Assembly: GCF_030817495.1 (NCBI RefSeq)
Contig: NZ_JAUSZK010000001.1
Location: 2,521,001 to 2,585,000 of the forward strand
DNA length: 64,000 nucleotides
Direction of reading: 5' to 3'
Source of the DNA: Streptomyces sp. V3I7
GTDB taxonomy: Bacteria; Actinomycetota; Actinomycetes; Streptomycetales; Streptomycetaceae
Shown: positions 1 to 15,506 of the stretch, piece by piece
How positions within the stretch are numbered: the first letter of the stretch is position 1
Layout: each line of letters begins with the position of its first letter
The notes under the pieces: generated by a model
What the model was told of the DNA's origin: nothing
The model's input: the letters and a program-made list of their open reading frames with translations, nothing else
Database searches by the model: none
Made by a program: the position numbers and the translations under genes

Positions 1-1289
1 TCCGTGAGCCGTTCCACGGTCGTGCCGTCGAGGAACGCCTTCAGAGCGCGTGTGCGCGAAGGCTGTGTCACCGTGGGGTCGACGCGCTCCTCCGGGAGGA
101 CCACCTCGCCGTTGCGGAGGGTGCGCACGGAGGCCTCCAGCAGAGGCAGTCGGTCGCCACCCCCCGTCATCGCCGCCCAGAAGTTCTTGCCCAGCGCCTG
201 CACGAGCCTGCGATGCATCCGATGGATGCTGTCGTCGTCATCGCCCTCGTCGTCATCGGGTACGCGGTTGGCATCCACGAGGCTCGCCACGTCGTGGGCT
301 CCGACGATCAGGAACGATGTCCCGGGCTCACCGCTCTCACGCGTCAGATGAAGGGAAGCGACCGTCTCCTCGTCCGCCCACCAGGAGCGTGCCACGGCGG
401 CTCCCGGCGAGTCGGGGTCGGGTCGCCCGAGCCACGCCGGCCCTGCCCACGCGCTGCCGTCCACCTGACGCCACGGCAGGTCCAGCCGCCCGATGAGTCG
501 CCGTTCGGTCCGGCCCTCGTGCGGTTCGGACAGCGTGGAGTTCATGAGTACGAGGCCGAGTCGACTGGTGGCCCACAGAGTGGCCTTGCCCAGACCGTAC
601 GAACCGCCCGCCGAACTACCGGACTTGTGGCTGTCGAGCTGACGCCTCACCACTGCCGCGAAGCGGCCGTCGTCGTAGTCGTCGCCCGTCAGACCGGCGG
701 CGTTGTAGTCGTCCACCCGCAACAGCACAAGCCGGTCGTGCTCGTACATGTCCCGCAGCCCGGAGTCGATGACCCGGCCGACCTTCTGTTCCTGGGCGGC
801 AGCCGTCACGTAGTGCGGGTAGAGGTCGTCCCACCGGATCGCTTCTCGGAACCTCGCGAGGGTCTCGCCGGTGAGTTCGTGCAGGGTGTAACGGACACGT
901 ACAGGTTGCCCGTTGGCGGTCAGCCGCTCATCGAGACTGTTCTGGCAGGTCTCCCTTGCGAGCACCTCCACGTCCGCGTCGAAGGCGAACGCCGCGGCAT
1001 TGCCCAACTCGCGGCCGCCGTCGGCGTGTCCGGGACGGTGGTACCAGCCGACGGGGAGGCCGGCCTGGGTGTCGGCGGTGCGGGTGTGCACCGTGGCCAG
1101 ATCGGTGTTCAATGCCCGAGCGATACGTTCGATCGTCTCAGGTCGCGGGGTGGCCCGTCCGGTGATCCACGCCGAGACCGCCGCACGCGTCACGTCCACG
1201 GTCTGGGCCAGCTCGGTCTGCGTCATGTCGGCGAGCTTCAACTGCCGCGCCAGCCATGGACCGAAGTCCTCGCTTGCTTCCACGGTCAC
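1..1289 (-). CDS. XRE helix-turn-helix / GHKL-type ATPase fusion, partial (runs off the left edge)
   Basis: The frame is open from the GTG to base 1, so the C terminus is missing. Residues ~15-65 form an XRE-type helix-turn-helix (MTQTELAQTV, then AAVSAWITG). After a short linker comes what looks like a GHKL ATPase: an N-box with the pattern RETCQNSLDE near residue 113, a G1-like DDYNAAGL near 193 and a glycine-rich lid GGSYGLGKATLWA near 230. An acidic linker (DDDEGDDDD) follows. The gene diverges from the helicase operon, and an inverted repeat that fits an XRE operator lies just upstream of its start. I infer a dual role, as autoregulated repressor of the operon and as an ATPase component. 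The start could instead be the in-frame GTG at 1283, which has AGGTGA in front. The HTH is clear; the ATPase assignment rests on motifs only. Confidence 0.7.
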   Translation of the reverse strand, partial: MTVEASEDFGPWLARQLKLADMTQTELAQTVDVTRAAVSAWITGRATPRPETIERIARALNTDLATVHTRTADTQAGLPVGWYHRPGHADGGRELGNAAAFAFDADVEVLARETCQNSLDERLTANGQPVRVRYTLHELTGETLARFREAIRWDDLYPHYVTAAAQEQKVGRVIDSGLRDMYEHDRLVLLRVDDYNAAGLTGDDYDDGRFAAVVRRQLDSHKSGSSAGGSYGLGKATLWATSRLGLVLMNSTLSEPHEGRTERRLIGRLDLPWRQVDGSAWAGPAWLGRPDPDSPGAAVARSWWADEETVASLHLTRESGEPGTSFLIVGAHDVASLVDANRVPDDDEGDDDDSIHRMHRRLVQALGKNFWAAMTGGGDRLPLLEASVRTLRNGEVVLPEERVDPTVTQPSRTRALKAFLDGTTVERLT

Positions 1290-1344
1290 CTGCTCTCGGG
1301 TTGTGCTCCACTTGCGTAGGACAGCGAGGCCACCCTACCCGCGC

Positions 1345-1381
1345 CTTTGACAACCGGCCCCTTGTCAAAGGGTCTTTGACA
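1345..1381. promoter_or_regulatory. Operator-like inverted repeat with a third half-site in the divergent defence promoter region
   Basis: CTTTGACAA (1345-1353) and TTGTCAAAG (1362-1370) are perfect 9-bp inverted arms around an 8-bp spacer. A further direct copy, CTTTGACA, follows at 1374-1381, 29 bp from the first. The arms contain TTGACA, so they may overlap -35 elements. The position, 56 bp upstream of the HTH-ATPase start and between two divergent genes, suggests the binding site of that HTH protein. This is inference from geometry; no binding data are visible. Confidence 0.55.
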
Positions 1382-1421
1382 GAGAGCCCGACCTTCAAGG
1401 CATTACACGCTGCCAGACTTC

Positions 1422-1439
1422 ACCCGGATTCATCCGGGT
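1422..1439. promoter_or_regulatory. Second palindrome in the divergent intergenic region
   Basis: ACCCGGAT and ATCCGGGT form perfect 8-bp arms separated by 2 bp. The sequence differs from the TTTGACA repeats nearby, so it may be a site for another regulator. It could also be chance in GC-rich DNA. Confidence 0.3.
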
Positions 1440-1560
1440 TGCCCCTTTCTTCGCCCTCCGCGCACCCCTTCGGAAGCCTTGCGCGCCCCCGACGCGGCCC
1501 GCTACCTTCTACTCCAGCGGCCCCACCCGCATCGGATGAAACGATTCTCCGAAGCCCTGG

Positions 1561-1589
1561 TTGAAGTGTGCCGTCTTCTCGTTTTAAAT
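1561..1589 (+). promoter_or_regulatory. Candidate promoter of the defence operon
   Basis: TTGAAG and TTAAAT are separated by 17 bp, close to the housekeeping -35/-10 pattern. The site lies in an unusually AT-rich patch about 280 bp upstream of the helicase start. If used, it gives a long 5' leader. No other gene lies between it and the operon. The rest of the 1290-1867 intergenic region shows nothing else I can assign. Confidence 0.35.
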
Positions 1590-1867
1590 CTCCCGACGGC
1601 AGCACAGGCAGCGGTGTGCGGAAATCTGTCTTCGCGCACCCAACTTCATTCGCCAGCCCTCCTCGTGCGTAATACACGCTGACTCGCCGTCTCGCCGACC
1701 GAAAAACAGAGGCCGCGTTTCGGGAACCGCCGTCCCGATAGCCGCGTCAGTCTCCACACCCACACGTCGACACATATATGACCGGGAGTCACATCGGGAC
1801 CGCCTCGGTCCGAACAGCGCACCGTTCCGCCCCTCCCGCCAGGCCTTCACCCCAGGACCGGAGTCCC

Positions 1868-4800
1868 ATGTCTTCTGACTTGACCCCTGTGATCAAGACC
1901 GTGGTCGATCAATCCTCCCGTGTTCTCAGGACGTACGCCGTCGATCCCGGCCTCATACCTGAACACGCCAACGGAGAAAGGCGGATCACCCAGGGTGGAT
2001 ACGGTGACCGGCAGCTCTTCGAACTCGTCCAGAACGCCGCGGACGAGATCGCCGCAGAGCCCGGCGGCTGCGCCCACGTCGTTCTCACGGATACTTATCT
2101 CTACTGCGCGAACGAGGGATCGGCCGTCACTCCCGAAGGCGCCGAGACGATTCTCCGGATGAGCATGTCGCGGAAACGCGGCGGCCAGATCGGTCGTTTC
2201 GGGGTCGGCGTGAAATCCGTGCTCGTCGTGACCGACGCCCCGCAATTCTTCAGCCGCACCGGCTGTTTCGGCTTCGACCGCGAGTGGGCCCACGCGCGGA
2301 TCCGCGCCGTTCCCGAGGTCACGGCCCGGCTCGGCGAGAAGTTCGAGGCTCCGGTGTTGCGCATGGCCCGTCCCTTGGACGAAGCCGCCGAGCGCGCCGC
2401 CGACCCCGTACTCGACGAACTGCTGACCTGGGCCACCACCGTCGTCCGTCTTCCGCTGCTCGACGGCGCCGCCGATCGGCTCGGCCAGGACATGCACGGA
2501 GGGCAGTCGGCCGGCGGCCGGGAGGAGTTCCCCCTCGGGTTCCAGCTCTTCTCGCCGCACGTGGCCAAGGTGATCCTGGAGGACCGCCGTCCGCGGCCTG
2601 TCGTACGGCGGACGCTCACCGTCGAACGAGACCAGGAACTGCACACCGTCCGTGAGGAGCGCCCCGGCAGGCACCCCTCGGCCAACCGATGGCGGGTGTT
2701 CACCCTCACCCACGAGCCGACCGCCGCCGCCCGCTCCAGTGCGGGCGAACTGCACGACCGGGTCGCCCTCGACATCTCGTGGGCCGTGCGCGAGTACGAG
2801 AAGGACGCCGCCGGGCTCATGTCCTCGCCCCGGGGGCGGGGCCGGTTCTGGTCGTTCTTCCCGACCAAGTACGAGATGACGCTGAGCGGAATCCTCAACG
2901 GTGCCTGGAAGACGAACGAGGACCGGCAGAACCTGCTGGACTCCTCCCCGTTCAACCAGGAGATGATCCGCATCGCCGCCCGGCTGGTGCTCGAGTCCCT
3001 TCCGAAGCTGGCCCACGTCGAGGACCCCGCCGCGTACCTTCCGCTCCTTCCCGGCCGTGCTCGTGAGTCGGAGACGGTCAGTTGGGCCGACCGCTATCTC
3101 ACCGAGCACATCTGGGAGGCCACCGCCCAGCGTCCGTCGCTGCCCGACCAGGACGGGCGGCTGTGCGTGCCGCGCGACCTGCACATCCACCCGTCGCTCG
3201 GCAAGGACAACAAGTCGCTGGTCCGTTGGCTGACCCTGTGGAGCTCGTACCCGGGCCGGCCCACGAACTGGCTGCATCCGTCCGTGGAGGCCACGGATCT
3301 CCGCGCCGGCAAGCTGGACCACATCCTCAAGGCCGCCAAGCGGGAACGCGCCACGGTGCGCGAGTGGTTGGAGGCACTGGTCGCCGACGGCACCGCCGAG
3401 GCCTCCGCCACCGCCGTCCGCATCGTCGCCGACATGGTCCAGTCGTCCTCCCCGTACGCGAACGACGCGCGCACCACGCGGATCGTGCTGACCGAGGAGC
3501 ACGGCATGGTGGCCCCGGTCGTCGGCAAGGTGTTTCGCCGCACCGACCAGGACGGGCTGCGCGAGTCCCTCGTGTACGTCGACACCGCTCTGTCCGACGA
3601 CCCGTCCCTCGCGGGCGCCCTGTCCGTGCTCGGCATCCGGGACGCCGACGTCCGAGGTCGCTTCGTGAGCGTCCTCGAGCAGGGCTTCGCCTCGTACGGG
3701 CCGCAGGAATGGACCCGGTTCTGGGAGCTTTTCCACCAGGCCGGGAGCAGCCACCTGTCCCACGAGGTGATCCGGCGTGTACCCGAGCCGCTCTCGACGC
3801 TGTATGTGCGCACCTCGGACGGCCGCTTCCGTCCGATGCGGGACTGCATGCTGCCGGGCCCGGTCGTGACGCCGGAGTCGGACGCTTGCGTCGCCGTCGA
3901 CGCCCGGTTCCACTCCGACGACATGGCCTTCTTCCGCGAGGTGGGGTTGCGCGACCGCCCCACGGGGGGACATCGCCCCGAGGCGGAAGCGTGGTTCGAG
4001 CAGTACCGCGAGGCCATGCACAAGGCGTACTGCGCCACCCTGCCCAACCAGGCCTCCCGTCCGACGCTCGCCAAGATCAAGCTGGAGGGTTCCGCGGTCG
4101 GCGGACCGCTGCACCTGCTGCCGGAACTCTCGAACGAGGCCCGGGCCAACTTCCTGAAGGTGCTGTCCGACGACGCCCTCGTCGACAACTGGACGCTACA
4201 GGTGGGAGCGCAGGTCAGCACCCGTAAGGCCGTGGCCTCGCCGATCCGCTGGATGCTCAAGCGGCATGGTCTCGTCCCCACCTCTCAGGGAATCCGCCCG
4301 GTCGGCGAGGCGGTCGGCCCCCAGCTCGATGCGTACAGCGACGTACTGCCGGTCGCGCGGATCAGCGCCGAGAAGGCCCGCAAGCTTCGCCTGGCCGCGA
4401 GCGTCGAGAACGTGCCCGACGCCTTCTGGGACCAGCTCCTGGAGAAGCTCCAGCACAGCGAGGACGACGTGTTCATCGGTAACACGTACGTGCTCCTGAC
4501 GCGCCTGGAGGTGCCCTTTCCCGACGACTCGCTCACGCGGTGCCGCATCGGCGAGGAGTGGGGCACCCGACCCGACGGTGAGATCGCTGTCGCCTCGTCG
4601 CAGGAGGAGTATCGGGCGTTGCGCTCCGAGGGGCTGCCCGCCCTGCTGGCCTCGTCGACCAAGGACGCCGCGCTGCTCGTCAAGCAATGGGGGATGCTGC
4701 CGTACGCCGACGTGATCAGCCGCGAGACCCGGCATGAGCCCGCCGGCGAGCCGGTCCCCCTCAAGGAGGCGTACCCCACGCTGCGGCAGATGCGCGGCTC

Positions 4801-6625
4801 GCAGGTGGACCAGTACACGCTGCAGCGGTGCAAGGTTCTCGAAGAGGTGACGCGTACCCCCAACGGCATGCGCCCCACGACGCTGAACAGCAGCCTGCAG
4901 GGATCCACGATCCTCGTGCTCGAACCCGCCGACCCCCTTGGCGCACTGATGGCCGTGGACCGTGAACTGCGCTGGCGCATGGGAGAGGCCGGATGCCGGC
5001 AGGTTCTGGAGGCGCAGCGGCGCCAGGAGGAGGACCAGAAGGTCAAGAGCGCGCTGAAGGCCGTACGTGAGGCCGACGACGTGGTGGCCAAGCTCCTGCT
5101 GCTGCTGGGCGCCGACACCCTGCGGGACCGTCTGCCGGCCGGACTGATGGACGGTGAGCGCGCGGAGAACAGTGGGGCCGAGCCCGACGGCTATCGCATC
5201 GCGCAGATGGCGTTCAACGCGCACGGAGACAGCATCCTGCACGAACACGCCCGTGACCTGCAGAACCTCTACCCGAGCCATGCCCCGACGTCGTTCAGGG
5301 GCGCCTCCACAGCAGTGGCGTTCGTGGCGGACCTCCGCTTCCCCGACGCCTTCGCCGGCTTCCGGGCGCCGTCGTTGGAGCCGCGGATAGACGTGGACGG
5401 GCCGCGTCACTTCCCGCGCCTTCACGACTACCAGGAACGACTGGCCGCCAACGTCTTCACCATGCTGGACCGCATCGTCCCGCAGCGCGGCATGCTGTCC
5501 CTGCCGACCGGCGCGGGCAAGACGCGTGTCACCGCCGAGGCGGTGATCCGCTGGGTCAAGCAGGTGGGCCGGCTCGACGGGCCGATCCTGTGGATCGCCC
5601 AGACCGAGGAGCTGTGCGAACAGGCCGTACAGAGCTGGAAGTTCGTATGGGAGAAGGTCGGAGCGGAGACCCCTCTGGCGATCAACCGTCTGTGGTCGAC
5701 GAACGAGGCAGCTCCCGTCACCGACCGACCGCAGCTGGTCGTCGCGATGGATGCCAAGCTCCAGCAGCCGACCTGCCTCGCCGCCGATGCCTACGCCTGG
5801 CTGCGCGACCCGGCCCTCGTCATCATCGACGAGGCGCACACCGCCATCACGCCCCGCTACACCGACATCCTGAAGAGCCTCGGCCTGACGTCCTCCCGCA
5901 CCGACCGTCATCTCCTGGGGCTCACAGCGACACCGTTCCGCAACACCAACCAGGACGAGACGCGCCGTCTGATCAATCGCTTCGGTGGCAGGCGTCTGGA
6001 CGACGGCGTCTTCGAGGGCGGCGACGCGTACGCCGAGCTGCAGCGACTCGGCATGCTGGCGCAGGTCGAGCACCGTCTCCTGCAAGGCGGCACGATCACT
6101 CTGCAGCCCGAGGAGAGGCAGTACGCCGAACAGATGAGCATTCTGTCCAGGGCGGCCGAGCAGCGGCTGGCCAAGGACCACGACCGCAGCTCACGCATCG
6201 TGGCCGAGATCTCGGCCATGCCGGAGGACTGGCCGGTGCTGGTGTTCGCCACATCGGTCGACCACGCAAAGTACCTGGCGGCCAAGCTGCGCGACCGTGG
6301 CATCACCGCCTCCGCCGTCGACTCCAACACGTCGGCCATCGACCGGCGCCGACGCATCGACGACTTCCGGACGGGCCGCACCCGTGTGCTCACCAACTAC
6401 GGCGTCCTCACCCAGGGCTTCGACGCTCCTGCCACCCGAGCCGTCGTCGTCGCCCGCCCGGTGTACAGCCCCAACGTGTACCAGCAGATGATCGGCCGCG
6501 GTCTGCGCGGTCGCCTCAACGGTGGCAAGGAGACCTGCCTGATCCTCAACGTCCGCGACAACATCGAGAACTTCGACACCGCCCTGGCCTTCACCCAGTT
6601 CGAGCACCTGTGGAGCAGCAAGTGA
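1868..6625 (+). CDS. Giant GHKL-ATPase / SF2 helicase fusion, first gene of a DISARM-related operon
   Basis: A protein of 1585 aa. The N terminus carries a sacsin/Hsp90-like GHKL fold: N-box ELVQNAADE near residue 55 and lid GRFGVGVKSV near 112. The C-terminal ~380 residues are an SF2 helicase: Walker A LPTGAGKT (~1211), motif II IIDEAHT (~1320), LTATPF (~1353), the TQGFDAPATR segment and motif VI QMIGRGLRG (~1540). About 1000 residues between them have no motif I recognise. ATG 1868 is chosen over the in-frame ATG 1778 because GGAG sits 4 bp upstream. The stop overlaps the next start as GTGA. The likely role is nucleic-acid sensing or translocation in phage defence; that is inference from context and domains. 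Confidence 0.85.
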   Translation: MSSDLTPVIKTVVDQSSRVLRTYAVDPGLIPEHANGERRITQGGYGDRQLFELVQNAADEIAAEPGGCAHVVLTDTYLYCANEGSAVTPEGAETILRMSMSRKRGGQIGRFGVGVKSVLVVTDAPQFFSRTGCFGFDREWAHARIRAVPEVTARLGEKFEAPVLRMARPLDEAAERAADPVLDELLTWATTVVRLPLLDGAADRLGQDMHGGQSAGGREEFPLGFQLFSPHVAKVILEDRRPRPVVRRTLTVERDQELHTVREERPGRHPSANRWRVFTLTHEPTAAARSSAGELHDRVALDISWAVREYEKDAAGLMSSPRGRGRFWSFFPTKYEMTLSGILNGAWKTNEDRQNLLDSSPFNQEMIRIAARLVLESLPKLAHVEDPAAYLPLLPGRARESETVSWADRYLTEHIWEATAQRPSLPDQDGRLCVPRDLHIHPSLGKDNKSLVRWLTLWSSYPGRPTNWLHPSVEATDLRAGKLDHILKAAKRERATVREWLEALVADGTAEASATAVRIVADMVQSSSPYANDARTTRIVLTEEHGMVAPVVGKVFRRTDQDGLRESLVYVDTALSDDPSLAGALSVLGIRDADVRGRFVSVLEQGFASYGPQEWTRFWELFHQAGSSHLSHEVIRRVPEPLSTLYVRTSDGRFRPMRDCMLPGPVVTPESDACVAVDARFHSDDMAFFREVGLRDRPTGGHRPEAEAWFEQYREAMHKAYCATLPNQASRPTLAKIKLEGSAVGGPLHLLPELSNEARANFLKVLSDDALVDNWTLQVGAQVSTRKAVASPIRWMLKRHGLVPTSQGIRPVGEAVGPQLDAYSDVLPVARISAEKARKLRLAASVENVPDAFWDQLLEKLQHSEDDVFIGNTYVLLTRLEVPFPDDSLTRCRIGEEWGTRPDGEIAVASSQEEYRALRSEGLPALLASSTKDAALLVKQWGMLPYADVISRETRHEPAGEPVPLKEAYPTLRQMRGSQVDQYTLQRCKVLEEVTRTPNGMRPTTLNSSLQGSTILVLEPADPLGALMAVDRELRWRMGEAGCRQVLEAQRRQEEDQKVKSALKAVREADDVVAKLLLLLGADTLRDRLPAGLMDGERAENSGAEPDGYRIAQMAFNAHGDSILHEHARDLQNLYPSHAPTSFRGASTAVAFVADLRFPDAFAGFRAPSLEPRIDVDGPRHFPRLHDYQERLAANVFTMLDRIVPQRGMLSLPTGAGKTRVTAEAVIRWVKQVGRLDGPILWIAQTEELCEQAVQSWKFVWEKVGAETPLAINRLWSTNEAAPVTDRPQLVVAMDAKLQQPTCLAADAYAWLRDPALVIIDEAHTAITPRYTDILKSLGLTSSRTDRHLLGLTATPFRNTNQDETRRLINRFGGRRLDDGVFEGGDAYAELQRLGMLAQVEHRLLQGGTITLQPEERQYAEQMSILSRAAEQRLAKDHDRSSRIVAEISAMPEDWPVLVFATSVDHAKYLAAKLRDRGITASAVDSNTSAIDRRRRIDDFRTGRTRVLTNYGVLTQGFDAPATRAVVVARPVYSPNVYQQMIGRGLRGRLNGGKETCLILNVRDNIENFDTALAFTQFEHLWSSK

Positions 6626-8535
6626 CCGCCCCCTATGACGACAGCCCTCCGCTCACCGACGAGCAGCGGGCCGTCGTCGCCCTCCCCTGGGACACCCGCC
6701 TCCTGGTCACCGCCGGGGCGGGTTCCGGAAAGACCCACACAGTCGTACGGCGCCTCGACGCGCTGGTGGGTCACGAGGACCCCGAAGAGGCGCTGGAGGC
6801 GGGCGAGATCCTCGTCCTGAGCTTCTCCCGCGCCGCCGTACGTGAGTTGCGAGACCGGATCGCCCGCCACGGCGACCGCGCCCGCAGGGTGCGGGTCCAG
6901 ACCTTCGACTCGTGGGCGTACCAGTTGCTCGTGCGGGCCCACCCCGACCAGGAGTGGGCGGCCCGCAGCTTCGACGAGCGCATCCGCGCGGCGACGGATG
7001 CGCTCGAGAAGGGCGCGGTGGAGGCCGGTGAGCTCGGGGCTCCCGCACACGTGGTGATCGACGAGGCTCAGGACCTGGTGGGTGACCGTCGCGACCTGGT
7101 GGAGGCGTTGCTCGACCGCTTCCAGCGCTCGTGCGGATTCACCGTGGTCGGCGACTCCGCCCAGGGCATCTACGGGTTTCAGATCGAGGACCCGACGGAG
7201 CGAGCGAAGGAGACGGATCGATTCTTCGACTGGCTCCGGGAGTCCTACGACGATCTCGTCGAGCTCGGCCTGACCGAGAACTTCCGGGCAAGGAGCGACC
7301 AGGCCCGCACCGCGCTCCCCCTCGGCTCTCGGCTGCAGAACCTGGCCGCCTCCCCCGACGGCCAGGAGGCCGCGGCCGCGCAGCTCCACACCGAACTGCG
7401 CGACCGTCTTCTCGACCTGCCGAACCTCGGCAACCTGACCGACGGGTTCATGCTGGACGCGTTGAAGACGTTCCCGGACACCTGCGCCATCCTGACCCGT
7501 GACAACCGTCAGGCGCTCGCCGTGTCCGAGCTCCTGCACGAGCACGGGGTGGACCACGCGCTGAAACGTTCACTGCAGGACCGTCCCGTTCCGCACTGGG
7601 TCGCCGAACTGCTGCGTCGTTCAGAGTCGTTGACGCTCACCGAAGCTCGCTTCCTGGAGTTGCTCGCGCAGATCCCGTTGGCTCCCGGGGTGGAGCCGCA
7701 GCGGTGCTGGCGGTCGCTGCGTGCCGCGACCCGGCGCACCGGCCGCGGCCTCGTCGACGTCTCCGCCGTACGGCGTCTGGTGGCGGAGGGGCGCTTCCCC
7801 GACGAGCTGGCGGACCCGGAATCGGCTCGTTTGATCGTCTCCACGGTTCACCGGGCCAAGGGCCTGGAGTACGACAGGGTGCTGCTGCTGTCGCCCCCCT
7901 CCATCGCCGAGCTGCGGAAGGCACACGAAGATCTCGACGTGCCGGCCGAGGCGCGAGCTCTCTACGTGGCCATGACGCGCGCCCGCGAGGACCTGTACCC
8001 CGTGGCGGGTCCGGACACCTCGGCCATCCGCCGACACCGCCCCACCGGGCGCTGGTACCGAGGTGGTTGGAAGAAATTCGCGCGCTACGGCATCCAGGCA
8101 ATGGCGAAGGACATCCACCGCGAGCAGCCTCCCGACTCGCACGAGGCAGGTGGGTCCGCGCTCGAGACGCAGACCTACCTGTTGGAGCACGTTCGTCCGG
8201 GTGATGCGGTGACGCTTCGGATGCGTCATCCGGTCCCTGTGGGGCCGGACCAGAGTCCGCCCTACGACCTGGTCCACCGCGACCGAGTCGTCGGCGAGGT
8301 CTCCGAGCGCTTCCGCCGAGACCTTCGAGCGGTGGAAGCGGTCTCACGCTCGTGGGAGATCACCTGGCCCACCGAGATCGTCGGCCTGCGCGTGGACACG
8401 CTGGAGACGGTGGCGGGCAGCACCGCGGCTGGGGTCAACGCTGGGCTCGGCGGCAACGGGGTGTGGATCGCCCCTCGGATCACCGGAATCGGACGGTATC
8501 GACGCGGCGAGCGCGCCGGGGAGGAACAAGGATGA
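6622..8535 (+). CDS. UvrD/Rep-like SF1 helicase of the defence operon
   Basis: A 637-aa ATP-dependent DNA helicase with the SF1A motif order intact: Walker A AGAGSGKT (~31-38), LSFSRAAVRELRD (Ia), VIDEAQDL (II, ~145), VGDSAQGIYGFQ (III), LTENFRAR (IV), STVHRAKGLEYD (V, ~407) and YVAMTRARED (VI, ~449). It is shorter than housekeeping UvrD/PcrA (~720-800 aa), and its C-terminal ~150 residues do not match the usual UvrD tail. The start is a GTG that overlaps the upstream stop by 4 bp; upstream in-frame codons lie inside the previous gene. It ends with an ATGA overlap into drmA. The tight coupling indicates a functional unit with the flanking helicases. Confidence 0.88.
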   Translation: MTAPYDDSPPLTDEQRAVVALPWDTRLLVTAGAGSGKTHTVVRRLDALVGHEDPEEALEAGEILVLSFSRAAVRELRDRIARHGDRARRVRVQTFDSWAYQLLVRAHPDQEWAARSFDERIRAATDALEKGAVEAGELGAPAHVVIDEAQDLVGDRRDLVEALLDRFQRSCGFTVVGDSAQGIYGFQIEDPTERAKETDRFFDWLRESYDDLVELGLTENFRARSDQARTALPLGSRLQNLAASPDGQEAAAAQLHTELRDRLLDLPNLGNLTDGFMLDALKTFPDTCAILTRDNRQALAVSELLHEHGVDHALKRSLQDRPVPHWVAELLRRSESLTLTEARFLELLAQIPLAPGVEPQRCWRSLRAATRRTGRGLVDVSAVRRLVAEGRFPDELADPESARLIVSTVHRAKGLEYDRVLLLSPPSIAELRKAHEDLDVPAEARALYVAMTRAREDLYPVAGPDTSAIRRHRPTGRWYRGGWKKFARYGIQAMAKDIHREQPPDSHEAGGSALETQTYLLEHVRPGDAVTLRMRHPVPVGPDQSPPYDLVHRDRVVGEVSERFRRDLRAVEAVSRSWEITWPTEIVGLRVDTLETVAGSTAAGVNAGLGGNGVWIAPRITGIGRYRRGERAGEEQG

Positions 8536-11500
8536 CGCACGGAACGGGAACGCATGCCGAGCACTATCGGGTCCGTGAGGAGCTCGTGGCGCGGCTGCGC
8601 CGCGAGCTCCTCGGACCGGATGTAGAGGCGGGCGACGACCCGGTCGAGGTACTCACCCAGGACGCCCCGATCACCCGCTACCCGATCGGCGTGCTGTTCC
8701 CGAGCGCCGCCGATCGCGAGGCCGAGCGGCGTGTGTCGGAGGACGCCGCCGAGGAGGAGGGGCTGGACGAGGCCCCGCTGCTCGGCCACGACAGCCCCGA
8801 GGAGACCGACGGCTCCGGCGAGCCTCCGGTCTCGGGTGACCGCCGCCCGTCGGCCATGGGGCTCACCTTCGCCGTGGCACCCGAGATCTGTCCCGAGATC
8901 GTGATCTCCGCGCGAGCCGCCGTATACGACCCTGTGGACCCCGAGGGCCGGCCGGTGTCCGCGCGGCGGGCGGAGGCTCGGTCGACGGCGGGCCAACGCG
9001 AGCATTGGCGACGCCGAGAACTGGAGCTGCCGGACACGAGGGTCGATGTCACCCGGCCGGGCACTCTCCACCCGACTCCCGTTCTCGCCGACGGTGTACA
9101 GCTGCACGTCCTCGTACGACCGGCCGGCGCGCCTTCCGGGACGGTCACCGTCACGGTCACCCTGATCAACACGCATGTCGTGGGCGAGAAGGAACTCCAG
9201 GACGCGTTCGCCCTGTTCCAGCCCGGCCTCCGGGTCCGGGCGGCCAACGGCGCGTCCGCCTTCGTCGAACGTCCCGCCGCTCTGTCCGCCGTCGACTCGG
9301 AGCTGGCCATCAGTCGTCTGCTGTATCGCCATGCCCCCACCTTCGCCGTGGGTCACGGCTGTTCCGCCCACTGGGACTGGGCGCCGCCATCGGTCGGCCT
9401 GACTGACATAGAGCGTGCCGCGATCAGTGAAATCCGCTCCGACTTCCTGCCCACTCACGAGGTGCTGCTGACCGACTCCAACCCGGAGATCGACAGCTCG
9501 GCCCTCGGCATGCTCGGTCTCGCCGAGCGCCCGGACGCGGAGGTGCTCGCCGCGCTGCGCGGTCTGGCCCGCGGCTACGAGCAGTGGATCGAGGCCAAGG
9601 CCACCGAGGCCGTCGCGCTCACTGGGACGACCCACGAGAAGCCCGCGCGGGAACAGCTCGACATCTGCCGCGAAGCCCTTGGTCGAATGCGCGCGGGTAT
9701 CCGGATCCTGGCGGAGAAGCCGGACGTCATGGAGGCCTTTCGGCTGGCCAACCGGGCCATGGCGGAGCAGCGAGCGCGCAGCGCCTGGGTGAAGGGCGGC
9801 CGTAAGGGCAAGCCCGATCTGTCGACCCAGCGCTGGCGGCCGTTCCAGATCGCGTTCATCCTTCTGTGCCTGTGCGGCATCGACGCGCCGAACCATCCCG
9901 ACCGCAAGGTCTCGGACCTGCTGTGGTTCCCCACCGGTGGTGGCAAGACAGAGGCCTACCTGGGCCTGATCGCGTTCACCACGTTCCTTCGCCGGCTGCG
10001 CCGCGGGACCGAGGGGGGGTGGCGTCACGGTGCTCATGCGGTACACGCTGCGCCTGCTCACCCTCCAGCAGTTCGAGCGCGCCACGATCCTCATCTGCGC
10101 GATGGAACGGATGCGCCGGGGCGCCCCCGACCGATTGGGCGCAGAGGGCATCTCCATCGGCATGTGGGTCGGCAAGTCGGCCACGCCGAACGACCTGAAG
10201 ACGGCTGGCGAGAAGCTGGTCAAGCTGCGCGGAGGGCAGAGCCTGCAGACGGAGAACCCGGTGCAGCTCCACGCCTGTCCCTGGTGCGGCACGGCGCTGG
10301 ACGCCCACAACTACTCGGTGGACGAGGACGACGTCCGCATGGACGTGCGCTGCCCCGGCCCGGACTGTGACTTCGCCTCCGGGCTGCCCGTGCACCTGGT
10401 GGACCAGACCATCTACGAGGCCCGCCCCACGCTCGTCATCGCCACGGTCGACAAGTTCGCCTCCATGCCGTGGCGCGAGGACACCGCCGCATTGTTCAAC
10501 CGGGACCGCGTCGGCGACACGACTCCGCCCCCCGAGCTGATCGTCCAGGACGAACTCCACCTCATCTCCGGGCCTCTGGGAACGCTGACCGGCCTGTACG
10601 AGACGGCCGTCGACGCCCTGGCCGAAGAGCCGAAGGTGATCGCTTCCACGGCGACCATCCGTCGCGCGGCCGAGCAGGGACTGCACCTCTTCGACCGGGA
10701 CGTACGTCAGTTCCCCCCGGCCGGTCTGGACGCCCGGGACTCCTGGTTCGCCGTGGAGACCGACCGCAAGGCCAAGGCCAGTCGCCGCTACGTGGGGCTG
10801 CTCGCTCCCGGCACCAGCCAGTCGACGCTTCTCATCCGGACGTACGCGGCCCTGCTCCACCAGGCCATGCGCGCGGACACGAGCGACGAGGTCCGGGACG
10901 CGTACTGGACACTGGTGGGCTACTTCAACAGCCTCCGCCTGCTCTCGGCCGCCGAGCTCCAGGTGAACGACGACGTCGAGGACTATCTGCGGCTGCTCGC
11001 CGACCGTGACGGAACCGAAGTACGGATCTCCAACCGCTACTCGGAGCTGACCAGCCGTGTCGACGCGAGCCTGATCCCCGCCCGGCTCAAGGAGATCGAG
11101 AAGCGCTACCCGGATCCCGACGTTCGCGACGTCCTCCTGGCCACCAACATGATCGCCGTCGGTGTCGACGTCGACCGCCTCGGCCTGATGGCGGTGATGG
11201 GCCAGCCCCAGACCACGGCCGAGTACATCCAGGCCACCAGCCGCGTGGGCCGTGCCCATCCCGGCCTGGTCGCCGTGATGCTCAACTCCACCCGTTCCCG
11301 CGACCGTTCGCACTACGAGAACTTCCTCCATTTCCACTCCGCGCTCTATCGGGAGGTGGAGTCCACGTCCGTGACGCCGTTCTCCGCCCGGTCGCGTGAC
11401 CGCGGTCTGCACGCCGTCGTCGTGGCCCTGGTCCGCATCCTCATCCCCGAGGCCCGCGCGAACGATGCCGCCGGTCGGATCGACTCCTACCTGGATCGCA

Positions 11501-11781
11501 TCCACGCGGAGATCAAGCCGCTGTTCACGCAGCGTGTCTCCCAGGTCGCCCCCGAGGAGCTGCAGGACACCTCCGACGCCTTCGACGAATTCGTCAAGTG
11601 GTGGAAGGAGAAGGCGGACGCGCACGGCGGACTGCTGTACGTGCCCCACCGCGGCAAGCCCACCCCCGCCCTGCTCAAACCGTTCGACGACGAGTCCGAG
11701 GGCGCCGACGCCTGGTCCACCCTGTGGAGCCTGCGCGACGTCGACGCCGAGTCCGCTCTCTTCATGGAGGCTTCCCGATGA
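8532..11781 (+). CDS. drmA: DrmA-like SF2 helicase, interrupted by a frameshift in a G7 run
   Basis: Read through the shift, this is ~1082 aa. The first frame supplies an N-terminal domain and Walker A FPTGGGKTEAYLG (~466). The second supplies MRYTLRLLTLQQFERA, a CPWCG ... CPGPDC zinc-binding pair (~581-610), motif II VQDELHLISGPLG (~672), ASTATIRR (~704), TNMIAVGVDVDRLG (~870) and QATSRVGRAHPG (~900). These are hallmarks of DrmA, the DISARM helicase. The two frames meet at seven Gs (10013-10019); six would give one continuous reading ...TEGGGVTVLMRYT. As written, translation stops at 10370. The break may be a sequencing error, a real null mutation or slippage. It starts by ATGA overlap with the UvrD gene and ends by ATGA overlap with drmB. 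Confidence 0.85.
10013..10019 (+). other. Seven-G homopolymer at the drmA frameshift
   Basis: The two open frames of drmA join only if one G of this run is removed. Six Gs would encode Glu-Gly-Gly-Gly-Val across the junction. Homopolymers of this length are typical sites of indel errors and of slippage, so the run is marked separately for checking against raw reads. Confidence 0.75.
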
Positions 11782-13646
11782 CCCCGCCCCCCGCGCGGCG
11801 CCGACGCGGCGCCGACGGCAATTCGCCCGCTCCCCGCCTGGCCTTCCCCCGTCGCGGTTCGGTGCGCCGCTCCCAGATGATCACCACGTACGGTGTCGGA
11901 TCACTGATCGCAGTCGACAACGAGTCGTTCATCGTCTCCGGCCTCGACGAGGCCGACCGGAGCTGGGCCGACGACGAGGCGCCGAAGGTCTACGAGCACC
12001 GTCTCGCCCGGGTCCTGGGAGTGAGTCACTTTCGGTTGCCCCCGGCCTCCGAGGACACGAGCAAGGACGGGGTACGCGTTCGACGGTTCCCGCTGTGGCA
12101 CTCCTGCCCGAAATGCCAGTCCCTGCAGCATGTGCGGGGCTTCAACCCGCCCGTCGGCAAGAACGTCTGCACAGACTGCGACGACGAGCCGCTGGTGCCG
12201 TCCCGATTCGTCATGGCCTGCGAGGACGGGCACCTCGACGACTTCCCCTACTGGAAGTGGCTTCACCGCAAGAACCGTGAGGAGGGTGCGGTCGGACGGT
12301 GTGGCGGCCGGATGGGCATGCGCTTCTCCGGTCAGAGCGCCTCGTTGCGTTCCATTCTCATCTCGTGCACGTGTGGCGTGCCGGAGGTGTCCATGGAGGG
12401 CGCCTTCCGCCGCTCAGTCCTGAGCGACCTCGGGGTGCGGTGCGCGGGCCGGCAGCCCTGGCTCAAGGACGCGCCCGCCGAGTTCTGCACACAGGCGCCG
12501 CGTACGCTCCAGCGCGGTTCGTCGGCGGTCTGGCAGCCGGTGCTGAGGTCCGCCCTGTCCATCCCTCCGTGGAGCGACGGTATCGCCGACAAGCTCTCGG
12601 AGCACTGGGAGAATCTGCGTTCGCTCGCGTCCCGCGAGAAGATCGAGATCTACCTCATGGGAGCGTTCCAGGGCGACGACTCGATCTCGGTCGACACGGT
12701 GATGGACCTGCTGGAGGCCGAGCAGGAGGAGGACCCGACGCCGGACGGCAACTCGGACGCCGGTGCGGTGAGCCGTTACCAGGTGCTGCGCCGCCAGGAG
12801 TACGAGCGGCTCTGCTCCGGCAACGCCCTGCGGGACAAGGGGCGCGAGGAGCAGTTCATCTGCGAGCCGCCGGTCTCGGATCCCTCGATCCTCGCCCCGC
12901 TCGGCGTCGGCAGGCCGATGCTGGTCAAGCGCCTGCGCGAGGTGCGGGCGCTCAAGGCGTTCACCCGCATCGCGGACCCGGAGTCGAGTTCCGACGGCCA
13001 CGAGGCCGCCCTGTCCCTGGCACCGACGAACTGGCTCCCCGCCATGGAAGTGCACGGCGAGGGCGTCTTCATACGCCTCGACGAGAACCGGTTGGACGAC
13101 TGGGCCGAGTCGGTCGCGGTGGCCGCTCGCGTCGAGCGCATACGCACCAACCACAACCGCATGCTGAGGGAACGGGCTGCTAACCCCGCGGAGGTACCTG
13201 TCTCGCCCGCCACGCCCCGCATGGTGCTGCTGCACACTCTGGCGCACGCGCTGATCAACGAATGGAGTCTGGAGGCCGGTTACCCGGCCGGAGCGTTGCG
13301 CGAGCGCCTGTACGCGGACGCCACCATGGCCGGCTTCCTCATCTACACGGCGACCAGCGACTCCGCCGGCAGTCTCGGCGGCGTGGTGGCCCAGGGGGAG
13401 CCCAAGCGTCTCGCCGAGGCGCTCGGCTCAGCACTGCGGCGCGCCACCTGGTGCTCCGCCGACCCGCTGTGCATCGAGGCGCGGTCGTCCGGCACCGGGG
13501 GTGCGAATCTGGCGGCGTGCCATGCCTGCGCGATGCTGCCCGAGACGAGCTGCGAGCACAACAACATCCTGCTCGATCGCGCGCTGCTCGTCGGCACCCC
13601 GGACGACGCGCGGCTGGGGTTCTTCGCGCACATACTGAACAACTGA
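11778..13646 (+). CDS. drmB: DrmB-like DUF1998 protein of the DISARM-related operon
   Basis: A 622-aa protein. The N terminus has GSVRRSQMITTYGVGSLIAV, typical of DrmB. It is followed by paired cysteines CPKCQ (~109) and CTDCD (~131), a likely zinc site, and by HLDDFPYWKW. The C terminus (~485-600) is the DUF1998 region, with LHTLAHALINEW, YTATSDSAGSLGG and CHACAMLPETSCEH. In DISARM, DrmB acts with DrmA on incoming DNA; DUF1998 often accompanies such helicases. Its ATG overlaps the drmA stop. It is the last gene of the operon and is followed by a strong hairpin. No drmC or methyltransferase gene follows. Confidence 0.88.
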   Translation: MTPPPARRRRGADGNSPAPRLAFPRRGSVRRSQMITTYGVGSLIAVDNESFIVSGLDEADRSWADDEAPKVYEHRLARVLGVSHFRLPPASEDTSKDGVRVRRFPLWHSCPKCQSLQHVRGFNPPVGKNVCTDCDDEPLVPSRFVMACEDGHLDDFPYWKWLHRKNREEGAVGRCGGRMGMRFSGQSASLRSILISCTCGVPEVSMEGAFRRSVLSDLGVRCAGRQPWLKDAPAEFCTQAPRTLQRGSSAVWQPVLRSALSIPPWSDGIADKLSEHWENLRSLASREKIEIYLMGAFQGDDSISVDTVMDLLEAEQEEDPTPDGNSDAGAVSRYQVLRRQEYERLCSGNALRDKGREEQFICEPPVSDPSILAPLGVGRPMLVKRLREVRALKAFTRIADPESSSDGHEAALSLAPTNWLPAMEVHGEGVFIRLDENRLDDWAESVAVAARVERIRTNHNRMLRERAANPAEVPVSPATPRMVLLHTLAHALINEWSLEAGYPAGALRERLYADATMAGFLIYTATSDSAGSLGGVVAQGEPKRLAEALGSALRRATWCSADPLCIEARSSGTGGANLAACHACAMLPETSCEHNNILLDRALLVGTPDDARLGFFAHILNN

Positions 13647-14443: not shown

Positions 14444-14660
14444 GACCGCTCCTCCCTCCCAAGCCACGCAGATGCTGCGCCCGCCGTATCCGTCCGGCCG
14501 CATTGCGTAGCGGTCTGCAAGCGAGCATGGCACAGAGAAATCTCTCCATGTAACTTCTCACGAGAATCCATCGAGTGAATCTGATGGTGGGGACGCTTCC
14601 CCGCTGCCTAGCCTGATGGCGATGACCGGGCCGCCGCCCGGCACCCGGCAAAGGAGCCGA

Positions 14661-15506
14661 ATGTCCGAACGAACCACCACGCGACGCCGCCAACTAGGCG
14701 CGATGATGCGCAAGTTGCGAGCCCGCAGAGGCATGACGCTCGAAGAGGCGGGGCAGCTCGTCGGAGTCTCGAAGGCCACGGTCAGCCGGTACGAGACCCA
14801 GGCCGGGCCGGTCAAGTGGATCGTCGTCGACGCTCTCTGCCGTGAGTACGGGGCAACTGAGGCCGAGCGGCAGGCCGTTGTCGGACTGGCAAAGGATGCC
14901 AAGCAGCAAGGCTGGTGGAGTTCCTTCGCCGACTCCATCCCGGAGAGCATGAACCTGCTGCTCACGCTTGAGGACGAAGCGGTGAGCGAGAGCCACTTCT
15001 CCTGTGTGTACGTCCCCGGCCTTCTGCAGACCCGCGCCTACAGCACAGCACTTCAGAAGGCCAACGAAGTGCCCCTGGAGACAGCGGAGATCGAGCGGCT
15101 GGTCGACATCCGCATGAAGCGTCAGGAGATCCTCAATCGGGCGAAGCCGCTCCGCCTCTGGGCGATCCTCGACGAATCGGTGATCCGGCGTGTCGTCGGC
15201 TCACCGCAGATCATGAAGGATCAGCTCGGCCGCCTGCTGGAAGCGAACGAGTCCCCACACATCACGCTCCAGGTGCTGCCGTTCTCCAAGGGGGCCCATG
15301 CTGCCGCCCTGGGAAGCTTCGTCATCATCGGCGGCCCTGAGCATGCCCTCGACGTGGTGTACGTCGACTTCCACACGGGCTCCCTCTTTCTGGAAAAGGA
15401 CGAGGAGCTCGACCGATACAGACTTGCGTTCGAGTACCTCCGCGCACAAGCGTTGGACATGGAGGCCTCCTCTGCCCTGATCCAACGCGTCCGCCAGGAG
15501 CTGTAA
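14661..15506 (+). CDS. XRE-family regulator with DUF5753-type C-terminal domain
   Basis: A 281-aa protein. Residues ~10-65 carry the helix-turn-helix (LGAMMRKLRARRGMTLEEAG, then SKATVSRYET). The remainder matches the Scr1/DUF5753 family (YVPGLLQTRAYS, KRQEIL, HITLQVLPFSKGAH, VYVDFHTGSLFLE). ATG 14661 follows AGGAG; the in-frame ATG at 14616 lacks a comparable site. The stop is immediately followed by the ATG of a DUF397 gene, the usual partner. Such pairs behave as regulator and small modulator in Streptomyces development (WhiJ and relatives), and some have been described as toxin-antitoxin-like. Confidence 0.9.
   Translation: MSERTTTRRRQLGAMMRKLRARRGMTLEEAGQLVGVSKATVSRYETQAGPVKWIVVDALCREYGATEAERQAVVGLAKDAKQQGWWSSFADSIPESMNLLLTLEDEAVSESHFSCVYVPGLLQTRAYSTALQKANEVPLETAEIERLVDIRMKRQEILNRAKPLRLWAILDESVIRRVVGSPQIMKDQLGRLLEANESPHITLQVLPFSKGAHAAALGSFVIIGGPEHALDVVYVDFHTGSLFLEKDEELDRYRLAFEYLRAQALDMEASSALIQRVRQEL

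Follow-up and report, generated by a model that had tools for sequence, protein, structure and literature searches.

How a DrmA-DrmB helicase pair with no methyltransferase beside it might tell self from foreign DNA is the question raised by a locus at the left end of a 64,000-nucleotide stretch of the Streptomyces sp. V3I7 genome (NZ_JAUSZK010000001.1:2,521,001-2,585,000, the whole of which is called the window here; the genome comprises 6.55 Mb in two contigs). A sequence-only reading had described five DISARM-related genes, among them three helicases and two GHKL ATPases, as a possibly under-described combination, had seen neither a methyltransferase nor DrmC, and had reasoned that the locus must discriminate otherwise or that its partners lie left of base 1. 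The arrangement is borne out by profile matches of DrmA to NF038325 and of DrmB to NF038324, and by GHKL, superfamily 2 (SF2) and UvrD matches. No methyltransferase or DrmC match occurs among the scanned proteins of positions 1-13646, but two C5 cytosine methyltransferase genes, MT1 and MT2, lie 2.7-5.1 kb left of base 1, so that their absence was an edge effect. The partners thus lie to the left, and discrimination free of methylation is not needed, both methyltransferase genes being present in 65 of the 67 related loci that keep the rest of the gene set. The DNA left of base 1, to which that reading had pointed, holds M33B, DUF6339, MT2, MT1 and vsr genes, and no DrmC is among the matches listed for it. 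We put at about even the chance that the locus belongs, as its right-hand part, to an actinobacterial restriction or defence cassette of nine genes, or ten if vsr is counted, that would discriminate by methylation, be driven by ATP and join a DISARM helicase core to a paraMORC/PDC-M33 module. Its genes are given below from left to right, negative coordinates lying left of window base 1 in window numbering (L002 position minus 20000; L003 position minus 3000).

-5474..-5031, same strand as MT1 and just before it: vsr endonuclease gene (PF03852, E 1.9e-15)
-5094..-4063, converging on DUF6339-M33B-HTH-GHKL: MT1, C5 methyltransferase (PF00145)
-3964..-2738, converging on DUF6339-M33B-HTH-GHKL: MT2, C5 methyltransferase (PF00145)
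-2710..-1832, same operon as HTH-GHKL: DUF6339 gene (PDC-M33C; PF19866, E 4.3e-12)
-1835..-843, same operon as HTH-GHKL: M33B, 330 aa, named by position only
-846..1289 (window part 1..1289), minus strand: HTH-GHKL, 711 aa, HTH_3 plus GHKL ATPase, paraMORC-like, PADLOC PDC-M33A
1868..6625, plus strand: GHKL-SF2, 1585 aa, TmtA/sacsin-like GHKL ATPase plus SF2 helicase; longest open reading frame (ORF) opens at 1778
6622..8535, plus strand: UvrD-like superfamily 1 (SF1) helicase, 637 aa, by profile matches
8532..10019, plus strand: drmA N-terminal part (ORF 8352-10370, start set by homology; NF038325 positions 1-499)
10020..11781, plus strand: drmA C-terminal part (ORF 10030-11781; NF038325 best stretch 725-1165, 675.6 bits)
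11778..13646, plus strand: drmB, about 622 aa, DrmB family with MZB/DUF1998 zinc domain; longest ORF opens at 11598

Gene content and conservation of the cassette

Related loci were retrieved with the GHKL-SF2 protein alone as query; the 69 obtained are close relatives only, and flanks of up to 10 kb were examined per locus. Seven genes (DUF6339, M33B, HTH-GHKL, GHKL-SF2, UvrD, DrmA and DrmB, called the machine genes here) keep one order and orientation in 67 of the 69, so the helicases are indeed conserved together with drmAB, as the sequence-only reading requires. In the proposed cassette, conserved among soil actinobacteria, [vsr]-MT1-MT2 converges on DUF6339-M33B-HTH-GHKL, and this block in turn is read away from (GHKL-SF2)-UvrD-DrmA-DrmB. 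In a sample of 41 genomes, the window's own counted, GHKL-SF2 (E<=1e-50) and HTH-GHKL (E<=1e-20) are found in the same 5 and neither is found in the other 36. Pairwise identities of the machine genes correlate with one another at Spearman 0.85-0.96 across 64 rows (the window and 63 loci, in each of which all nine genes score at least 70 bits; L039, L051, L053, L055, L069 and L070 are left out, GHKL-SF2 values are missing for L060, and DrmA identity is computed from its C-terminal part). Together with the near-invariant ATPase motifs of the cassette proteins tested over 68 aligned rows (the window and its relatives) and the presence of both methyltransferase genes, the fixed order, marker co-occurrence and identity correlations are among the grounds for the one-system reading.

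In the right-hand operon, whose genes overlap or abut, the two helicases at the head are those described from sequence alone: the start of GHKL-SF2 at about 1868, giving 1585 aa, is backed by alignment to the start codons of L005, L006 and L038. Its N-terminus matches TmtA (PDLC03964, E 7.5e-40, best stretch residues 41-477 of the long ORF) and the sacsin-type model NF047352 (61.1 bits against a cut-off of 50), and its C-terminus is an SF2 helicase (ResIII, E 2.4e-16). The Walker A lysine and the Walker B DE of UvrD are kept in 68/68 rows. DrmB scores 475.7 bits against NF038324, whose cut-off is 240, matches PF09369, and its zinc cysteines are conserved across the aligned rows. DrmA and DrmB thus end an overlapping operon and both match their families, as had been claimed, but drmA is not one ORF, a frame break that the earlier reading had missed.

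The two halves of drmA lie in different frames, so that the DrmA model matches the window copy in two frames, and the switch comes at seven consecutive G (10013-10019), not far past Walker A. In all 67 relatives that have both parts the gene is one open frame, with a longest G run there of 5. Because it is open across the break in 67/67, the copy here is taken to be mutated or wrongly assembled, and on these alignments the break is either a mutation or an assembly error. Programmed frameshifting, considered because the break falls in seven G, is unsupported, since the relatives' G runs do not exceed 5 and the gene is open in all of them. Intact DrmA relatives (L006 and L046) score 1012.3 and 1018.6 bits, above the 950 that NF038325 requires, and in 67 loci the drmB match starts at the end of the drmA ORF (L055 leaves 785 nt).

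To the left, HTH-GHKL does diverge from the right operon on the minus strand, as the sequence-only reading held, but the gene seen in the window is cut by its edge; in full it encodes 711 aa and is the first gene of a three-gene operon. It carries an HTH_3 domain (E 8.7e-13), and at least 67 of the 68 aligned rows retain the GHKL motif residues (N, D and GGSYGLGK positions). It matches PDC-M33A (PDLC04582, E 3e-23) over a span limited to profile positions 30-171 of 627, and the DUF6339 protein matches PDC-M33C (PDLC04586, E 2.3e-7); an M33A GHKL protein and an M33C/DUF6339 protein in one operon, the combination by which PDC-M33 is recognised, are thus both found here. M33B gave no match in Pfam, PADLOC or NCBIfam. 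Predicted structures suggest a mainly helical DUF6339 protein and an M33B built of a beta-sandwich plus helices.

Methyltransferases and the source of specificity

MT2 scores 433 bits against the MTase_II model and 65 against DrmMII, and MT1 287 bits against DruM2 and 90 against DrmMII. The motif-IV cysteine is essential for catalysis by C5 methyltransferases. In MT2 this residue (GGPPC) is present in 60 of the 60 rows ungapped at that point, with 7 rows gapped, while MT1 has an arginine at the same position in all 66 rows of its alignment (the window and 65 loci). Two other motifs of MT1 are mostly retained: the first G of the S-adenosylmethionine-binding motif SGAGG is kept in 64/66, and in the ENV motif E is kept in 64/66 and N in 66/66. 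There are 2184 MT1 homologues at E<=1e-20, and the best 120 of them (one being the window's own, and the set overlapping in species with the cassette loci) all have Pro-Arg at this position and none has PCQ; 107 read GLPR, 118 are captured by a wider pattern and the last 2 were assigned by eye. MT1 is therefore apparently dead as a DNA-methylating enzyme and MT2 apparently working, as judged from these residues. Source names of the MT1 homologues, where given, are DNA cytosine methyltransferase or similar. Such annotations, like the DISARM name that an NCBI model would give the helicase, hide both the cysteine-less methyltransferase and the joined cassette.

MT2 alleles have been swapped while the machine stayed nearly constant. 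The identities of MT1 correlate with those of the machine genes at 0.61-0.77 and those of MT2 at 0.13-0.34 in the 64-row set. L008 and L030 are 92-97% identical in the machine genes, 42% in MT2 and 61% in MT1; for L027 and L050 the values are 88-97%, 36% and 65%. Whole MT2 genes seem to have been replaced, because the low identity runs along the gene in the pairs examined. At 60% identity MT2 falls into six classes of 33, 11, 9, 8, 2 and 1 members. Were the specificity of the machine fixed, a change of MT2 alone would expose the chromosome, and we therefore infer that the attack specificity travels with the methyltransferase genes, on the assumption that different MT2 classes have different sites.

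These observations suggest a scheme in which MT2 would mark self by methylating host DNA at a site that depends on which of the exchangeable alleles is present. The specificity element that engages unmethylated foreign DNA would move along with the methyltransferase genes and be either MT2 or MT1, the latter as a pseudo-methyltransferase. Both GHKL ATPases may then act in recruitment or bridging, as DNA clamps of the MutL/MORC kind, and the SF2, UvrD and DrmAB motors may translocate on and unwind the DNA, which would subsequently be cut by a nuclease, for which the Vsr protein is a candidate. The HTH domain of HTH-GHKL would repress its own operon through a conserved repeat. A more specific and rather unlikely version places the attack-side specificity in MT1 as an obligately dead C5 methyltransferase, which would bind the unmethylated form of the site that MT2 protects and load a generic GHKL/DrmAB machine, so that a swap of the methyltransferase genes would retarget it. 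If true, a large helicase machine would be re-targeted by exchanging methyltransferase genes, and the bacterial relatives of MORC would gain a concrete function. The locus offers a testable case of a methyltransferase retained without its catalytic residue, and ties DISARM helicases and MORC-like GHKL restriction systems, which have been studied apart, into one conserved unit.

Competing explanations and relation to known systems

The cassette could instead be two independent neighbours in one defence island that share an integration site and no function: to the left a PDC-M33/paraMORC restriction-modification system, to the right a relative of DISARM (GHKL-SF2, UvrD and DrmAB) that lacks a methylase. 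Relatives of each half do occur apart. A GHKL protein followed by an M33B-sized gene and a DUF6339 gene lies near a C5 methyltransferase in Synechococcus and in a haloarchaeon, and a UvrD-DrmA-DUF1998-NERD arrangement occurs without the left half in Rhizobium and Azospirillum. A SEC-C gene, described below, lies left of the cassette in 26 of the 67 loci and is found near another DrmA-DrmB locus, as expected of a hotspot, and in L033 the left half is window-like and the right half different, so that modules with different histories can recombine. However, both halves are kept in 67/69 loci, six of the 67 falling outside Streptomyces and Kitasatospora (two Rhodococcus, two Amycolatopsis, one Prescottella and one Actinomadura); none of the 41 genomes has one marker without the other; left-right identity correlations are 0.85-0.94; and the divergent arrangement is fixed. 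We regard independent neighbours as unlikely.

Beside the recombination in L033, several other observations weigh against a single methylation-discriminating system. As 61 of the 69 loci are Streptomyces or Kitasatospora, locus counts are not independent. DrmB is present in 15 of the 41 genomes, and 10 of these 15 lack the cassette, so the co-occurrence of DrmAB with it holds one way only. Five of the MT2 classes have at least two members, one class holding 33 of the 64 rows. Once the machine is controlled for, the association of MT1 with MT2 is weak (partial Mantel r 0.10; 48/2000 permutations) and that of DUF6339 with MT2 is stronger (r 0.36; 0/500); DUF6339 being MT2's neighbour, shared recombination tracts may explain the latter. 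M33B (r 0.05, 82/500), GHKL-SF2 (0.06, 56/500) and HTH-GHKL (-0.03, 339/500) have no clear association with MT2 in this partial test, and that of UvrD, DrmA and DrmB is negative. A strictly co-swapped MT1-MT2 pair is unsupported, given this weak partial association and two exceptions, L067 against L071 and L010 against L058, in which MT1 stays similar (83%) while MT2 has changed. Vsr, the only nuclease recognised in the cassette, is found in 57/67 loci, so no nuclease is conserved in every locus and Vsr as a universal effector is likewise unsupported. Structural models of DUF6339 and M33B gave no clear match in the PDB, a comparison uninformative for a nuclease fold. Finally, the ORFs for UvrD (416 aa), DrmB (446 aa) and MT2 (328 aa) are shortened in L055 (14767-21767), which looks like breakage or faulty assembly.

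Three further explanations concern single components. MT1 could have no reader role on the restriction side and serve, without catalysis of its own, to stabilise or steer MT2, for which DNMT3L with DNMT3A provides an analogy. The two genes are same-strand neighbours in 59/67 loci and, among 508 pairs with more than 80% identity in six machine genes (GHKL-SF2 omitted), the median MT1 identity is 79.0% in the 439 pairs that share an MT2 class and 63.7% in the 69 that do not; yet MT1 lies away from its usual place in 7/66 loci, and the two exceptions above run counter to a partnership, which leaves it doubtful. The Vsr protein could act as a V gene product repairing deaminated 5-methylcytosine at MT2 sites, with the effector nuclease elsewhere or unneeded (helicase-only interference). 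No vsr was seen in the flank of 10/67 loci, and the nine of these ten genomes that were searched all have a Vsr match somewhere (9/9), in the complete Amycolatopsis chromosome of L059 at a distance of at least about 0.4 Mb from the cassette, provided that the coordinates are the record's; against this, vsr stands just before MT1 on the same strand in 48/67 loci and no other nuclease was recognised in the cassette. We judge a repair role evenly poised. The frame change at 10013-10019 also raises the possibility that the cassette of this genome is a decaying pseudo-system, with drmA broken and the rest drifting. However, the other cassette genes are open and retain the motifs tested, and homopolymers such as the one at the break are also where sequencing or assembly errors fall; decay is conceivable here and is not what we would expect.

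The nearest known system is DISARM, with which the cassette shares a DrmA at family-level score and a separate adjacent DrmB. Class 2 DISARM, defined by DrmMII and DrmE, has a C5 methyltransferase, as does the cassette. Unlike DISARM, both methyltransferases here are closer to other methyltransferase models than to DrmMII, and the cassette adds GHKL-SF2, UvrD, HTH-GHKL, M33B, DUF6339 and the cysteine-less methyltransferase. The DrmC model NF038319 (DrmC_I) found nothing in the one genome searched (0/1 at E<=0.001), other DrmC models were not searched genome-wide, and no DrmC is among the PADLOC matches listed for the scanned proteins of the cassette and beside it. Nor do those matches include the class 1 proteins DrmD and DrmMI or the class 2 protein DrmE, none of which was searched for genome-wide. 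Ordinary DISARM is therefore ruled out, there being no DrmC, DrmD or DrmE among the matches listed and the methyltransferases being closer to other models than to DrmMII, in keeping with the earlier view that this may be something else; between the methyltransferase genes and drmAB, moreover, stand a conserved GHKL module of three genes and the leading genes of the right operon. Tiamat (TmtA), a single-gene system, resembles the N-terminal GHKL region of the 1585-aa protein, which differs in having a C-terminal SF2 helicase and in being part of a multigene cassette.

ARMADA, to which the sequence-only reading may have alluded, has, as far as the available part of the preprint describes it (Bell et al. 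2025, PMC12458937), one fused YprA helicase with a BrxA-like insert and a C-terminal Vsr, a BrxHII helicase and a PglX-like methyltransferase. Types I and II resemble the present cassette in being a YprA-family helicase system that has several helicases, one of them UvrD/GajB-like, together with a methyltransferase; here, however, DrmA and DrmB are separate and the methyltransferases are of C5 type. No PglX match is listed for the cassette of the window genome, and the SF2 domain of GHKL-SF2 matches the BrxHI/BrxHII models only weakly (17.7 bits). Judged by the architectures in that available text, ARMADA is ruled out, with DrmA and DrmB separate and no PglX match listed. Restriction neighbourhoods with GHKL, C5 methyltransferase, Vsr and SF2 proteins appear in the accessible part of PMC2292703, and the GHKL motifs, C5 methyltransferases, Vsr and SF2 helicase of the paraMORC restriction-modification neighbourhoods (Iyer et al. 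2008) are also present here, the S5 domain and the paraMORC subfamily lying outside this comparison. The CglI and NgoAVII stress-sensitive restriction systems differ in comprising three genes with a phospholipase D (PLD) nuclease, and DrmAB and GHKL proteins are not described in the accessible portions of their sources. Literature searches found nothing joining DISARM with GHKL, methyltransferase and helicase, nothing on DUF6339, and nothing joining a catalytically inactive cytosine methyltransferase with restriction-modification and phage defence. Neither the fixed nine-gene combination nor the cysteine-less methyltransferase was met in the literature covered, mostly texts other than subscription journals and supplements. 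The components and each half are already known or listed as candidates, and the fixed combination appears, within that literature, to be new.

Operator-like repeat and flanking genes

A conserved inverted repeat with a third half-site precedes HTH-GHKL.

1346-1369 plus 1375-1381, no strand assigned: operator-like site TTTGACA-N10-TGTCAAA plus third half-site, 56 nt from the HTH-GHKL start codon

Its three heptamers of TTTGACA/TGTCAAA type (1346-1381) are the only ones on the plus strand of the 64 kb. The pattern was read from the window and six close relatives and then tested on 68 rows that include these seven; with at most 2 of 14 mismatches it occurs within 120 nt of the HTH-GHKL start in 52/68 rows, compared with 1/1360 shuffled and 4/1360 random locus stretches. 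The spacing is 10 in 46 of the 52, and exact copies occur in 10/68 rows, including three from Rhodococcus and Amycolatopsis loci (L046, L059 and L066). The natural reading of so conserved a repeat would be autoregulation by the Xre-type HTH domain, with the repeat as candidate operator. Tandem repeats were sought in window positions 1-22000 and none was found.

Left of the cassette, at L002:13281-14294 (window about -6719 to -5706), lies a gene that matches no Pfam family and is called SEC-C here, a name given by eye for the cysteine pattern at its C-terminus. In another genome such a gene (L090:16353-17360) is near a different DrmA-DrmB locus with a cysteine-keeping C5 methyltransferase and a Vsr gene, and the SEC-C gene probably marks a shared integration site. 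The 20-kb left flank contains a single tRNA, a tRNA-Lys (L002 1287-1361) distant from the cassette. Right of the cassette, window positions 14616-15506 encode a regulator with HTH_31 and DUF5753 (NF058600, 248 bits, below the cut-off of 350), and genes similar to it by eye lie right of the cassette in relatives (an ORF cluster covering 38 loci, shadow ORFs included).

Other arrangements of these genes were also seen. In the Rhodococcus-group loci L053 (9977-16445) and L069 (1-15784), GHKL-SF2 occurs without UvrD-DrmAB downstream, and the next gene has no Pfam match; in L069, DrmA/DrmB and an MT2-like gene lie upstream of GHKL-SF2 instead. A Tsukamurella plasmid (L098:13448-22542) carries a short C5 methyltransferase, a RelA/SpoT-domain protein, UvrD, DrmA and a DUF1998 protein, with GHKL genes absent; its DrmA is 53% identical in the C-terminal part and represents another DrmAB combination.

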